A program made the position numbers and the translations under genes. Of a DNA stretch of 64,000 nucleotides, positions 25,978 through 31,880 are shown in pieces (positions within the stretch are counted from its first letter, which is position 1; every line of letters starts with the position of its first letter). The notes under the pieces were generated by a model. It had not been told where the DNA came from, searched no databases, and saw nothing but the letters and a program-made list of their open reading frames with translations. The stretch covers positions 43,888 to 107,887 of the forward strand of contig PLWX01000087.1 of assembly GCA_003151155.1 (NCBI GenBank), given 5' to 3'. Source of the stretch: Acidobacteriaceae bacterium. GTDB taxonomy: Bacteria; Acidobacteriota; Terriglobia; Terriglobales; Acidobacteriaceae.

Positions 25978-26191
25978 GCGTGGGCGTCTGTGAAAACGGA
26001 GTAGCTGTTGTCCTCATAAAGGTTTGTCTCACCTCAGCTTCTCGTCCCGCTAAATCTCGATTCTACACAAGATTCCAAAGCTGAATCTGCAACCCCCGAA
26101 TGTTGCATCACGTCTGTTGGTATGGAGTACAATTCTCGCCCACGAGGGACTGTGTGGCAGCAGCGGTTGCAGTGTTCCGCTGAGGGTAGGC

Positions 26192-27238
26192 ATGAACGTC
26201 CATATTAGTTATAAGGGTCTGGAAAAGACCCCCGACGTCGAATCCACCATTCAACAACACCTCAAAAAATTAGAGCGCAGGCTGCAGCTTTTCCGGCCAG
26301 AGCTGGTGAATCTGCATGGCAGCGTTTTGCAGAAATCGCCGCGTGCGGGATTCGTGGTGGCCCTTAATTTGCGAATGCCGTCTACCGATCTCGCGACCGA
26401 GCAGGCGAACCAGAATGCCGCGATGGCGATCAAGGCCGCGTTCGACTCGTTGATCGAACAGGTAACCAGCCACAAAGACCTACTGCGCAATCATCACCGC
26501 TTTCCCGGCAGACGACGCGGGTCACTGCGACGTCCTGAAGGGACCGTTCCTTTCGAAAAGACGATGGCGTCGGTTAAGTTGGAAGACGTTTCCAACGAAG
26601 ACGTCAACAGCTACATCAACGCAAACCTGCCACGCTTGCGGCGTTTCGTGTCGCGAGAAATTCATGCTCGCGAGAATGACGAACAGATCGGCCGTGGCGC
26701 GTTGAGCGTGGACGAAGTGATCGGTGAAGCTATCGGCGACGCTCTCAGCGACTCGCATGAGCGACCCGAAAAAATGCGCCTTGAGCCCTGGCTATATCGG
26801 TTGGCTACGGCGGCCCTCGATCGCCTTAGTAGAGGAGACTCCGGCGGCAGCAACGTCGCGCTGGAGCGGCCGGATGATCCGCGCAATGAAGATGCGAGCG
26901 ATGAAAATGTTCTGCAATTCCACCAACCCGACGACGATCTTTCGTCACGCAGCCTGACGGCCAACGATCAGGTTGCCAACCCCGAAGAGCTAGCCGCGAA
27001 AGACGAGATGATCACGCTCGTCGAACGCACGCTGCGCGATGCGGGACGACGGGAACGAGAAGCATTCATCCTGTATACGATCGAAGGCTTCACCGTCGAG
27101 GAAATCGCCGACATCACACAGAGACCGCACGAGGAGGTGAGGAAAGGCGTGCACACCGCGCGCGAACACCTAAAGAGGGCATTGCCTGTGAAGGATGCGC
27201 TCAGCGACCGATTAATCGAGCACTCCAAAACAGCCTGA
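26192..27238 (+). CDS. HPF/RaiA ribosome-hibernation domain fused to sigma-70-like regions 2 and 4
   Basis: 348 aa from the ATG at 26192, which follows GAGGGTAGG; the longer frame from 26117 has no such support. Residues 1-100 match the HPF/RaiA fold (MNVHISYKGLEKTPDVESTI, LKKLERRL, AAMAIKAAFDSLIEQVTSHKDLL). Residues about 138-212 resemble sigma region 2 (INANLPRLRRFV...LEPWLYRLATAALDRL). Residues 277-331 are a clear sigma region 4 helix-turn-helix (RREREAFILYTIEGFTVEEIADITQ, then VHTAREHLKRAL). The linker is acidic. Whether it binds ribosomes, RNA polymerase or both is unknown. The eRF1-like gene starts 52 bp downstream. Confidence 0.85.
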   Translation: MNVHISYKGLEKTPDVESTIQQHLKKLERRLQLFRPELVNLHGSVLQKSPRAGFVVALNLRMPSTDLATEQANQNAAMAIKAAFDSLIEQVTSHKDLLRNHHRFPGRRRGSLRRPEGTVPFEKTMASVKLEDVSNEDVNSYINANLPRLRRFVSREIHARENDEQIGRGALSVDEVIGEAIGDALSDSHERPEKMRLEPWLYRLATAALDRLSRGDSGGSNVALERPDDPRNEDASDENVLQFHQPDDDLSSRSLTANDQVANPEELAAKDEMITLVERTLRDAGRREREAFILYTIEGFTVEEIADITQRPHEEVRKGVHTAREHLKRALPVKDALSDRLIEHSKTA

Positions 27239-27290
27239 CACTTCAAACAATCACGACCCTCAAACCACCGAACCATCAGGAGACTGAGGA

Positions 27291-28457
27291 ATGATCACGC
27301 GGGACGAGATTCGCGAGATATCGGAAATCTATTCACCAGAAGGGTGCGCACTCACGTTCTACTACCAGCCGGCTACTCCGTCGGACAAATCTCATCGTCA
27401 TGAAGCAATTTTTGTAAAAGACATGGTTCGCGAAGCGCTAGCGCAGGCTGAGCTGCAGGGCAAGAATCCGTGTGCCCGGCAGGATGTGGATCGCATCCTC
27501 AACATGGCGGATCAACTTCAGGGCAATGGCCGGAAGGCGAAGGCGATTTTTGCCTGTGCCCACCGGGGGATCTGGAAGGAATATGATCTGCCGCCTCTGC
27601 TCAAGAAAACCCAGCTTACGGTGAACTCGCGCTTCCATCTCAAGCCGCTGGTTCCGGTGCTCGATTCTCTTCCCCGTGTGCTGATCGCACTGATCGATCG
27701 TACGAAAGCGCGCATCTTTGAATTGGCCGATGAAAAGTTGACGGAAAAGCAGGACTTCTTCAACGACCTTCCGCGTAAAGGGAAAAGCGATGGCTTCGCG
27801 GGCTATGACGCCGGTCATGCCGAGCGTCACGAACTCAATGATGCGATGGTTCACTTCAAAACAGTTGCCGACTATCTGCAGAGCTATTGCCAGCGGACGC
27901 ATTGCGACAAGGTTGCGATCGGATGCCGCGACGAAAGCTGGTCGGAGATCCGGCCCAACCTGCATACCTATACGCTCGATCACCTGGTCGGGCAGTTCCG
28001 CATCGATCCCAAGAGCGCTTCTCCGCAAGAGGTGAAGGAAAAAGTAGATCTGCTGCTTGCCGAAGAAGACGGCCGACGCAAACTCGACCTGCTCAGCCAG
28101 GTCATTGGCGAAGCGGGACGCGATGGTCGCGGAGCGCTTGGACTACGCCGGGTACTGCGCTCGCTCGAGATGGGCGAGGTGCAGACATTGTTGATCGAGG
28201 ACAAGTTCGCGGCGCCGGGGGTGCAGTGCACCAACTGCAATCACATCGACATCAACATGTCGCACACCTGTAGCGGGTGCGGACAGCCGACGATCGGGGT
28301 AGAAGACATCGCCGATCCGCTGCTGGCGCGTGCCATGGCTGCGGGAATCGAATTGCAATATCTCCCGGCCAACGGTGATCTGGATCGCGTCGGAAGGATC
28401 GCGGCGCTGCTGCGTTTCCGCGCCGACCAGAATACTTCGATGAAGCAGGCCAGCTAG
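27291..28457 (+). CDS. Bacterial eRF1-like (baeRF family) protein with zinc ribbon
   Basis: 388 aa. The middle part (about 130-220: RVLIALIDRTKARIFELADEKL, then HFKTVADYLQSY, KVAIGC) follows the ribonuclease-H-like middle domain of archaeo-eukaryotic release factors, and the C-terminal region is an L7Ae-like domain carrying a zinc ribbon, C313-x2-C316 and C327-x2-C330. There is no canonical GGQ motif; the segment DGFAGYDAGHAERH occupies the corresponding loop. Bacterial members of this family are thought to act in ribosome rescue. Co-direction and a 52-bp gap to the HPF-sigma fusion support this. Start is the ATG at 27291, with GGAG 5' of it. Confidence 0.75.
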   Translation: MITRDEIREISEIYSPEGCALTFYYQPATPSDKSHRHEAIFVKDMVREALAQAELQGKNPCARQDVDRILNMADQLQGNGRKAKAIFACAHRGIWKEYDLPPLLKKTQLTVNSRFHLKPLVPVLDSLPRVLIALIDRTKARIFELADEKLTEKQDFFNDLPRKGKSDGFAGYDAGHAERHELNDAMVHFKTVADYLQSYCQRTHCDKVAIGCRDESWSEIRPNLHTYTLDHLVGQFRIDPKSASPQEVKEKVDLLLAEEDGRRKLDLLSQVIGEAGRDGRGALGLRRVLRSLEMGEVQTLLIEDKFAAPGVQCTNCNHIDINMSHTCSGCGQPTIGVEDIADPLLARAMAAGIELQYLPANGDLDRVGRIAALLRFRADQNTSMKQAS

Positions 28458-29964: not shown

Positions 29965-30615
29965 ATGCACGGGGCATTCTCCGCGCACATCGTCCAGTTC
30001 ACGCTGGTGGCGATCAGTTCGGTTTTTTTCCTGGTCGATCCTTTCGCGGTGATTCCTACGTTCCTGGTGATGACGGCGCGGCATGATTCCGAGACGCGGC
30101 GGCGCATGGCAGCACGGGCCTGCTGGACGTGCTTCATCGTGCTCTCGGCGTTTGCGGTTGCCGGGACAGCGATTTTCAAACTCTTTGGTATCACCCTGCC
30201 GGCCTTTGAAATCGCGGGAGGACTGATCCTCTTATTGATCGGTCTTGATATGTTGCAGGCGCAGCGCTCGACCCAGGAAGGTCCGACAGAAACCCTCGAA
30301 GGCACGATCAAGGACGACGTCGGGATCACGCCGCTGGGCATCCCGATGCTGGCCGGGCCGGGGGCGATTTCGACCGTCATGGTGCTGAACGGCAGCGCGC
30401 GCAACTGGTCGACGACGATCCCGGTGTTCGCGGCGATCGCGCTTTCGTCGATCGTTTCCTACTGGATTCTTTGCGCGGCGGAGCGGGTGAGCAAGCGCAT
30501 GGGGCAGACCGGCATCCGGGTGCTGATGCGCATCATGGGACTGATGCTGATGGCGATCGCGATCCAGTTCATGATCAACGGCGCGACCAATTTGGGACTG
30601 ATCAAGGTTGATTGA
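29965..30615 (+). CDS. MarC-family integral membrane protein
   Basis: 216 aa from the ATG at 29965, with six hydrophobic helices. The family pattern LVDPFAVIPTFLVMT is near residue 25, the helix with FEIAGGLILLLIGLDML is near 80, and GIPMLAGPGAISTVMVL is near 125. Its length fits the MarC family (about 210 aa). An in-frame ATG at 29854 would add a hydrophilic extension without signal and lies inside a dispersed repeat. Function of the family is not settled; transport is assumed. Confidence 0.88.
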   Translation: MHGAFSAHIVQFTLVAISSVFFLVDPFAVIPTFLVMTARHDSETRRRMAARACWTCFIVLSAFAVAGTAIFKLFGITLPAFEIAGGLILLLIGLDMLQAQRSTQEGPTETLEGTIKDDVGITPLGIPMLAGPGAISTVMVLNGSARNWSTTIPVFAAIALSSIVSYWILCAAERVSKRMGQTGIRVLMRIMGLMLMAIAIQFMINGATNLGLIKVD

Positions 30616-31157: not shown

Positions 31158-31289
31158 CCACCCGGCCGGTTCGCGATTCGAACCGTTGTCCGTTGAAATT
31201 CTGACGGGAATCACCCTAGACTAATCGCGGATATTGGAATTGCATTCGGCAATGCAAGAGGTTGAGGACGCGGACGACGGAGGATGGCT

Positions 31290-31880
31290 ATGAGTGCAGT
31301 GAAAGCGCGGAACAGTGGTAGCAGTAAAAAAGAACCGTCAGCAGGACAACGTGAGGAACTCCTCAAAACATTGAAAGCGCGATTCGAGAAAAACGGGAAC
31401 CGACACAAAGGTATCGAATGGTCCAAGGTACAAGCGAAGCTGGAGGCGAATGCCGAGAAGCTGTGGTCCCTGAGTGAAATGGAGAGAACGGGCGGTGAGC
31501 CGGACGTGGTTGGCCAGGATAAGAAGACGGGCGAATGTATTTTTTACGATTGTGCGGCGGAGAGTCCGAATGGGCGGAGGAGTATCTGTTACGACCGTGA
31601 AGCGCTGGAGTCACGGAAAGAACATAGGCCCGCGAATAGCGCCATGGCGATGGCAGCCGACATGGGGATTGAGCTTTTGACGGAAGCACAATATCGAGAG
31701 TTGCAGACGATGGGAAAGTTCGATACGAAAACTTCAAGCTGGGTGGAGACACCTGCTGCGATCAGAAAACTTGGCGGAGCCCTGTTTTGCGATCGCCGCT
31801 ATGACACGGTTTTCACGTATCACAACGGAGCGGAATCCTATTATGCCGGCCGGTCGTTCCGAGGCTCGCTGAAGGTCTGA
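31290..31880 (+). CDS. DUF4256-family protein
   Basis: 196 aa. GGAGG at 31279-31283 is seven bases from the ATG at 31290 but touches the ATG at 31284, so 31290 is taken as the start. The core (NRHKGIEWSKVQAKLEANAEKLWSL, MERTGGEPDVVG, YDCAAESPNGRRSICYDREAL) is that of the DUF4256 family, soluble proteins of unknown function. No signal peptide or membrane helix. It is convergent with the DUF1801 gene. Confidence 0.82.
   Translation: MSAVKARNSGSSKKEPSAGQREELLKTLKARFEKNGNRHKGIEWSKVQAKLEANAEKLWSLSEMERTGGEPDVVGQDKKTGECIFYDCAAESPNGRRSICYDREALESRKEHRPANSAMAMAADMGIELLTEAQYRELQTMGKFDTKTSSWVETPAAIRKLGGALFCDRRYDTVFTYHNGAESYYAGRSFRGSLKV

Follow-up and report, generated by a model that had tools for sequence, protein, structure and literature searches.

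The 64,000-nucleotide window analysed here, a contig stretch from an Acidobacteriaceae bacterium, carries a gene that joins a ribosome-hibernation (HPF/RaiA) domain to a sigma-factor-like half, and only 52 bp separate its stop from the gene at 27291-28457, which encodes a Balon-like protein (Table 1). We lean, with moderate confidence, towards reading the pair as a two-gene ribosome-hibernation module, in which the HPF domain and the Balon-like protein would park ribosomes and the sigma-derived half would act as a PhyR-type docking module instead of an active sigma factor. The architecture of the fusion, its conservation, its linkage to the Balon-like gene, the loss of hallmark sigma residues and the stress-island context of its relatives were observed directly, whereas the docking of a sigma-binding partner by the sigma fold would follow from the analogy with PhyR. 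The HPF-sigma fusion represents a widespread, apparently undescribed family.

Table 1. Features of the fusion locus, in window coordinates
Feature	Position	Strand	Evidence
GGAGTACAAT, window version of the family motif CGGGTGTAnAATY upstream of the fusion	26124..26133	+	22/22 loci align on the motif
HPF-sigma fusion gene (348 aa)	26192..27238	+	open from ATG 26192 to stop 27238; Pfam/NCBIfam, model, homologues
HPF/RaiA (S30AE) domain, residues 1-103	26192..26500	+	PF02482 4.6e-8; model vs RaiA 8rd8_D
Sigma region 2-like helices, residues 135-215	26594..26836	+	TIGR02937, model, residue comparison
Acidic sigma2-sigma4 linker, residues 216-262, motif FxQPDExLxxED (window: QFHQPDDDL)	26837..26977	+	
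Sigma region 4-like HTH, residues 263-331, without the usual recognition-helix K-S-R..R	26978..27184	+	PF08281 5.2e-6, PF22233 1.1e-6
Balon/baeRF-family-10 hibernation-factor gene (388 aa)	27291..28457	+	PF18854 1.5e-14; profile to Balon MSMEG_1130; no GGQ
Zinc ribbon, Cys 313, 316, 327, 330	28227..28280	+	invariant in 18 homologues

The reading frame of the fusion could also open at a TTG (26117), but the ATG was preferred because relatives begin with MNVHxSYK at this codon. Searches with hmmscan against Pfam placed S30AE at residues 3-96 (34.1 bits, cut-off 23.7), Sigma70_r4_2 at residues 287-327 (26.4 bits, cut-off 25.7) and PhyR_sigma-like at the same place as the latter (28.7 bits, cut-off 27), and the NCBIfam sigma70-ECF model (TIGR02937) covered residues 140-331 (45.3 bits, cut-off 42.9). 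Sigma70_r2 (PF04542) on its own stayed under the Pfam threshold, with an E-value of about 0.07 in one relative. A profile built from 65 fusions matched HPF chains over residues 1-105 (E 7e-10) and ECF sigma chains over residues 165-332 (E 1.5e-16). The sequence-only reading had described a single protein combining HPF/RaiA with region 2-like and region 4 sequence, and this description is borne out, with S30AE at the N-terminus and an ECF-type sigma2-sigma4 arrangement at residues ~135-331. Pfam searches up to E 1 found no long-HPF C-terminal dimerisation domain, the C-terminal half being sigma-like instead, and no receiver-domain match was obtained. Across the fusions the HPF half is mostly basic, a few HPF domains of the family being neutral or slightly acidic, and the sigma-like half is strongly acidic.

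Structure prediction led to the same picture, both halves of the model resembling solved HPF and sigma folds. The AlphaFold model, built with 65 relatives (mean pLDDT 81), comprises an HPF fold (residues 1-103), three sigma2-like helices (135-215), a poorly ordered linker and a four-helix sigma4 domain (263-331). In structural comparisons the predicted HPF part superimposed on RaiA 8rd8_D with Z 15.3 and an rmsd of 1.5 over 99 residues. The best whole-sigma match of the sigma part was the NepR-bound ECF sigma RpoE of Bartonella (Z 14.3, rmsd 4.2, 151 residues), and PhyR-NepR (Z 11.8), CnrH-CnrY and SigW-RsiW were also among its matches. A fusion from an alphaproteobacterial stress island is predicted to adopt the same fold as the window protein.

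To define the spread of the fusion, we searched genomes of the window's own family (f1, 37 genomes), of a sister family (f2) and beyond. Some match to the fusion protein at E <= 0.001 was found in 46 of 61 relatives, part of these matches being ordinary sigma factors, and strong, fusion-grade matches (E <= 1e-20) in 23 of the 37 f1 genomes. A profile search yielded matches at E <= 1e-12 in 25 of 297 genomes, patchily distributed over many other Acidobacteriota families, a few of the matches spanning sigma region 4 only. Scanning genomes with the pattern QPDExLx[LV]ED recovered 80 loci, mostly full length and all fitting the fusion profile, from Acidobacteriota, Alpha-, Beta- and Gammaproteobacteria, Nitrospirae, Tectomicrobia and others, and Pfam independently lists the combination of S30AE with sigma region 4 in members of several distant groups. 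Altogether, more than 100 homologues keep the fused architecture across phyla; with the HMM matches given above, this answers both grounds for refutation named in the sequence-only reading, a lack of significant HMM matches and a local mis-join. A rival explanation would be that two genes are read as one, or that a random HTH-like stretch resembles a sigma by chance. Region 2 alone does fall under the Pfam threshold, as noted above, but given the full-length homologues in many phyla, with their conserved linker, and the match of both modelled halves to solved folds, this explanation has a nearly negligible probability. Database labels of the homologues read 'sigma-70 family', 'FliA', 'sigma-28' or 'hypothetical'. 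Seven f2 genomes that are nearly complete (95-98%) encode no S30AE protein other than the fusion, which consequently probably does the HPF work there. The window genome also encodes a long HPF (L194) and, on another contig (L193:1511-1855), a third S30AE protein of 114 aa, the gene for which sits, from a reading of the open reading frames, between response regulator and P-type ATPase genes.

The sequence-only reading had also recognised an eRF1-like protein with a zinc ribbon downstream of the fusion, and this assignment holds: the protein matches baeRF_family10 in Pfam (54.9 bits, cut-off 27.1), and the four ribbon cysteines are conserved without exception among its homologues. The NCBIfam model of the Rv2629-family RHF was hit at 5.3e-12, below the model's cut-off. 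Used as a single sequence, the protein found no match in the PDB, but a profile of 18 homologues did, with Balon MSMEG_1130 on the ribosome as the best match (8v9j, E 2.8e-20), ahead of aRF1; 8v9k (E 2e-14) and 8rd8_B (E 3e-9) matched as well. Inspection by eye of the window protein and its alignment revealed neither GGQ nor NIKS, the catalytic loop reading DGFAGYDAGHAERH. The proposed function as a rescue factor fits less well: since GGQ is lacking and MSMEG_1130 is the best PDB profile match, identification of the partner as a hibernation factor of the Balon type is preferable. Like Balon, Rv2629 and MSMEG_1130 (baeRF), it is an aeRF1-like protein next to a RaiA-type gene; it differs from them in belonging to the baeRF_family10 subfamily, in its four-Cys zinc ribbon and in scoring below the cut-offs of the NCBIfam Balon models. 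Family 10 has been described as containing a well-conserved Gln (PMC6514570), which is absent from this loop of the window protein. Burroughs and Aravind reported baeRF-HPF neighbourhoods and suggested non-catalytic inhibition (PMC6514570).

Surveying the genomes for linkage of the fusion to eRF1-like genes, as the sequence-only reading had proposed, revealed a clear association. In f1, a Balon gene of the baeRF10 type was present in 17 of the 23 genomes with a fusion, always adjoining it, and in 0 of the 14 fusion-less genomes, these being simple counts uncorrected for kinship. The pairing recurs under other flanks at loci L064 and L098-L100 (GroESL, or Hsp20-ClpP-FtsH), and at L065:4975-6541 an unfused short HPF (122 aa) is followed 37 bp on by a Balon-like gene, a pair devoid of the sigma part. 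The link is thus not explained by synteny alone. Nor is it obligatory, since several f1 genomes, and the f2 genomes throughout, have the fusion but lack this Balon type. In several other families the fusion has a 390-aa gene (c4) downstream, which was considered as a Balon counterpart and rejected, its sequence reading as an aminotransferase. According to the Balon report (PMC10901736), Balon and RaiA occupy one ribosome together, Balon genes most often adjoin raiA, and other Balon neighbours include alternative sigma70 factors, Hsp20, HdeD and MarC; the RaiA and alternative sigma70 entries in the figure legend of that report may represent the HPF-sigma fusion under either name. In the window, the fusion locus has genes for ferredoxin oxidoreductase subunits, asparaginase and MarC as neighbours. 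The MarC family membrane protein is encoded at 29971-30615, two genes past the Balon-like gene, and MarC is one of the Balon neighbours listed in PMC10901736. A DUF4256 protein (308 bits) is encoded at 31284-31880.

We then asked what remains of sigma function in the fusion by aligning 105 distinct fusions against 12 canonical sigma factors encoded in the window's own genome. Eight hallmark positions follow textbook sigma functions. At these positions, picked with the same alignment in view, the fusions keep 0-3 of the 8 ECF hallmarks (the window protein 2), compared with 5-8 of 8 in the 12 own-genome ECFs, with no overlap. The Gln of region 2.2, found in 91% of the ECFs, is replaced by Asp in 93% of the fusions and by Gly in the window protein; the Asn of region 2.4 (83% of the ECFs) is rare in the fusions, and the K/R-S-R..R series of the recognition helix is scattered or acidic in them. 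Mean charges differ accordingly, the recognition helix carrying -0.3 in the fusions and +3.8 in the ECFs, and the linker -10.6 and -4.8, respectively. The HTH and the entire sigma part of the fusions are acidic, whereas most ECFs of the window's genome are basic or close to neutral. The residues common to fusions and ECFs (R289, A306, L327 and W200) are fold-holding ones. The element best conserved between phyla, from Acidobacteriota to Proteobacteria, is the interdomain FxQPDExLxxED. One canonical ECF of the same genome (L185) has a sigma2-sigma4 linker, LFLEDLLPSPDAGPE, that resembles the QPDE motif of the fusion, and this factor is possibly a relative of the fusion's parent sigma.

The f1 relatives (L002-L022) have in common the sequence GG(T/A)GTAnAAT, located 41-101 bp ahead of the fusion start and without a clear -35; it is probably a promoter -10 region. 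The CGGGTGTAnAATY motif hardly occurs outside the fusion locus, with about one site per genome; a regulon with a shared promoter, which we considered, found no support, and one conserved promoter fits instead. The best scores for an ECF-type promoter upstream of the fusion averaged 6.5, slightly above the 6.2 of shuffled sequences, and sigma-70 promoter scores equalled those of shuffles. The sole exact GTGTAnAAT of the window lies inverted on the minus strand at 26060-26068, ~130 bp before the fusion begins, 0.64 such sites being expected by chance.

In Proteobacteria, the fusion resides within mobile chaperone/protease islands (FtsH, ClpG/K, Hsp20, HdeD, GroEL/DnaK). The alphaproteobacterial gene set is FtsH-ClpG/K-fusion-HdeD-hyp-NDUFS4-like-Rhomboid-ClpP-Trx-KefB, and in Burkholderiaceae the fusion adjoins GroESL, DnaK and Hsp20. 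On the Escherichia coli plasmid pKL53-L (L170:14001-15146), orf11 of the tLST heat-resistance island proved to be a divergent HPF-sigma fusion with both HPF and sigma parts, the gene being identified as orf11 by the order hdeD-orf11-trx. Alone, orf11 has no Pfam match, but it matches the fusion profile with E 5e-25 over profile positions 1-329, carries the linker motif as FYQHDDTLKLAD and clusters in the tree with Burkholderia and gammaproteobacterial members. Compared with the window gene, this full-length homologue of the tLST/LHR island has a more divergent HPF domain and, in place of a Balon neighbour, a mobile chaperone/protease island around it; conversely, the tLST flanking genes clpK/ftsH/hsp20/yfdX/hdeD/trx/kefB are not the neighbours at the window locus. 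A Paracoccus fusion protein has homologues in 302 plasmid records, mainly from Klebsiella and Enterobacter, pKL53-L being the one for which tLST identity was checked. Previously, orf11 was described as sharing less than 30% identity with any protein whose function is known (PMC8290217). LHR2 carries it in disrupted form (PMC5383660), and its deletion in E. coli is reported to have caused no drop in acute heat or chlorine resistance (PMC8407380); on these accounts, orf11 is dispensable for acute survival.

How might the two proteins act together? By analogy with what is known of their families, the HPF domain of the fusion would bind the 30S neck and block the mRNA/tRNA channel, as RaiA/HPF do, and the Balon-like partner would fill the A site, sharing the ribosome with it. 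The C-terminal half would be the descendant of an ECF sigma, stripped of its promoter-reading and core-gripping residues, and such a sigma mimic could capture RNA polymerase itself or a sigma-binding partner, for example an anti-sigma factor, thereby tying ribosome parking to the stress programme. PhyR offers the precedent: its ECF structure is correct, its contacts to promoter and core are degenerate, and it titrates an anti-sigma (PMC8103513). A link between ribosome and transcription through sigma mimicry is conceivable, and a tentative extension of it would be a ribosome-occupancy switch, to which we give limited credence: on idle ribosomes the fusion would hide or present its sigma mimic, release or docking would titrate an anti-sigma or hold RNA polymerase, dormancy of ribosomes and of transcription would become one event, and orf11 would be the hibernation component of tLST. 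Next to the fusion we saw neither an anti-sigma (NepR-like) gene nor a receiver domain; with no anti-sigma gene recognised there, docking to RNA polymerase or a plain scaffold role has to be weighed as well.

The loss of promoter- and core-contact residues makes a PhyR-like sigma mimic or docking module likelier than an active sigma factor. Under the sequence-only proposal, the fusion would be released from ribosomes to guide RNA polymerase, that is, it would be an unusual but active ECF sigma, held on ribosomes by its HPF domain and directing the polymerase to stress promoters upon release. The above-cut-off sigma70-ECF match, the sigma2 and sigma4 folds that appear intact in the model, the deposited annotations of homologues as sigma factors and the existence of ECFs with N-terminal extensions of unknown mechanism (PMC8103513) all agree with such activity, but the hallmark contacts are gone family-wide, the acidity of the HTH and whole sigma part sets it apart from the ECFs of its own genome, the upstream region shows no salient ECF-type promoter, and its conserved motif is nearly exclusive to the fusion gene instead of regulon-wide. 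Given that the basic residues for DNA contact have disappeared from the region 4.2 recognition helix, and that Asp mostly stands in place of the region 2.2 Gln, we disfavour this proposal and regard it as quite improbable. Alternatively, the sigma fold could be a mere scaffold that replaces the long-HPF dimerisation domain, touching the surface of the ribosome or a second fusion molecule, or covering the basic face of HPF, without any transcription link. Such a role would suit the absence of a long-HPF C-terminal domain in the Pfam searches and the pairing of a strongly acidic sigma-like half with a mostly basic HPF half, and HibA, an HPF joined to a module exploring vacant ribosomal sites (PMC13324472), provides a parallel; it is nevertheless unlikely, since the sigma2-sigma4 layout and FxQPDExLxxED, conserved from Acidobacteriota to Proteobacteria, exceed the needs of a mere spacer.

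The preferred reading, a hibernation module with a sigma-derived docking half, combines elements that are already known separately, namely HPF with an added module (HibA), PhyR-type sigma mimics and HPF-Balon neighbourhoods. With RaiA/HPF, including long HPF, the fusion shares the S30AE fold and sequence and, as RaiA often does, it adjoins Balon; its sigma-derived C-terminal half, in place of a detectable long-HPF dimerisation domain, is the difference. HibA is an archaeal HPF-CBS fusion with the CBS module N-terminal to HPF (PMC13324472), whereas the window fusion is bacterial, with a C-terminal sigma-like module. The resemblance to PhyR, of the alphaproteobacterial general stress response, extends to the degenerate ECF sigma fold lacking promoter and core contacts and to the related region 4 sequence (PF22233), but PhyR has a receiver domain and a NepR partner, whereas the fusion has an HPF domain and no partner was seen. 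From ECF sigma factors, with which it shares the sigma2-sigma4 fold, the fusion is distinguished by lost hallmark residues and high acidity. In the open-licence literature we found no description of HPF joined to a sigma fold, or of orf11 as such a protein. If the reading is correct, ribosome hibernation and sigma/anti-sigma control, usually studied apart, would be linked in one polypeptide across several phyla, orf11 of tLST, an open item in the heat-resistance field, would gain an identity, and heat-resistance islands would seem to carry ribosome protection besides chaperones and proteases.
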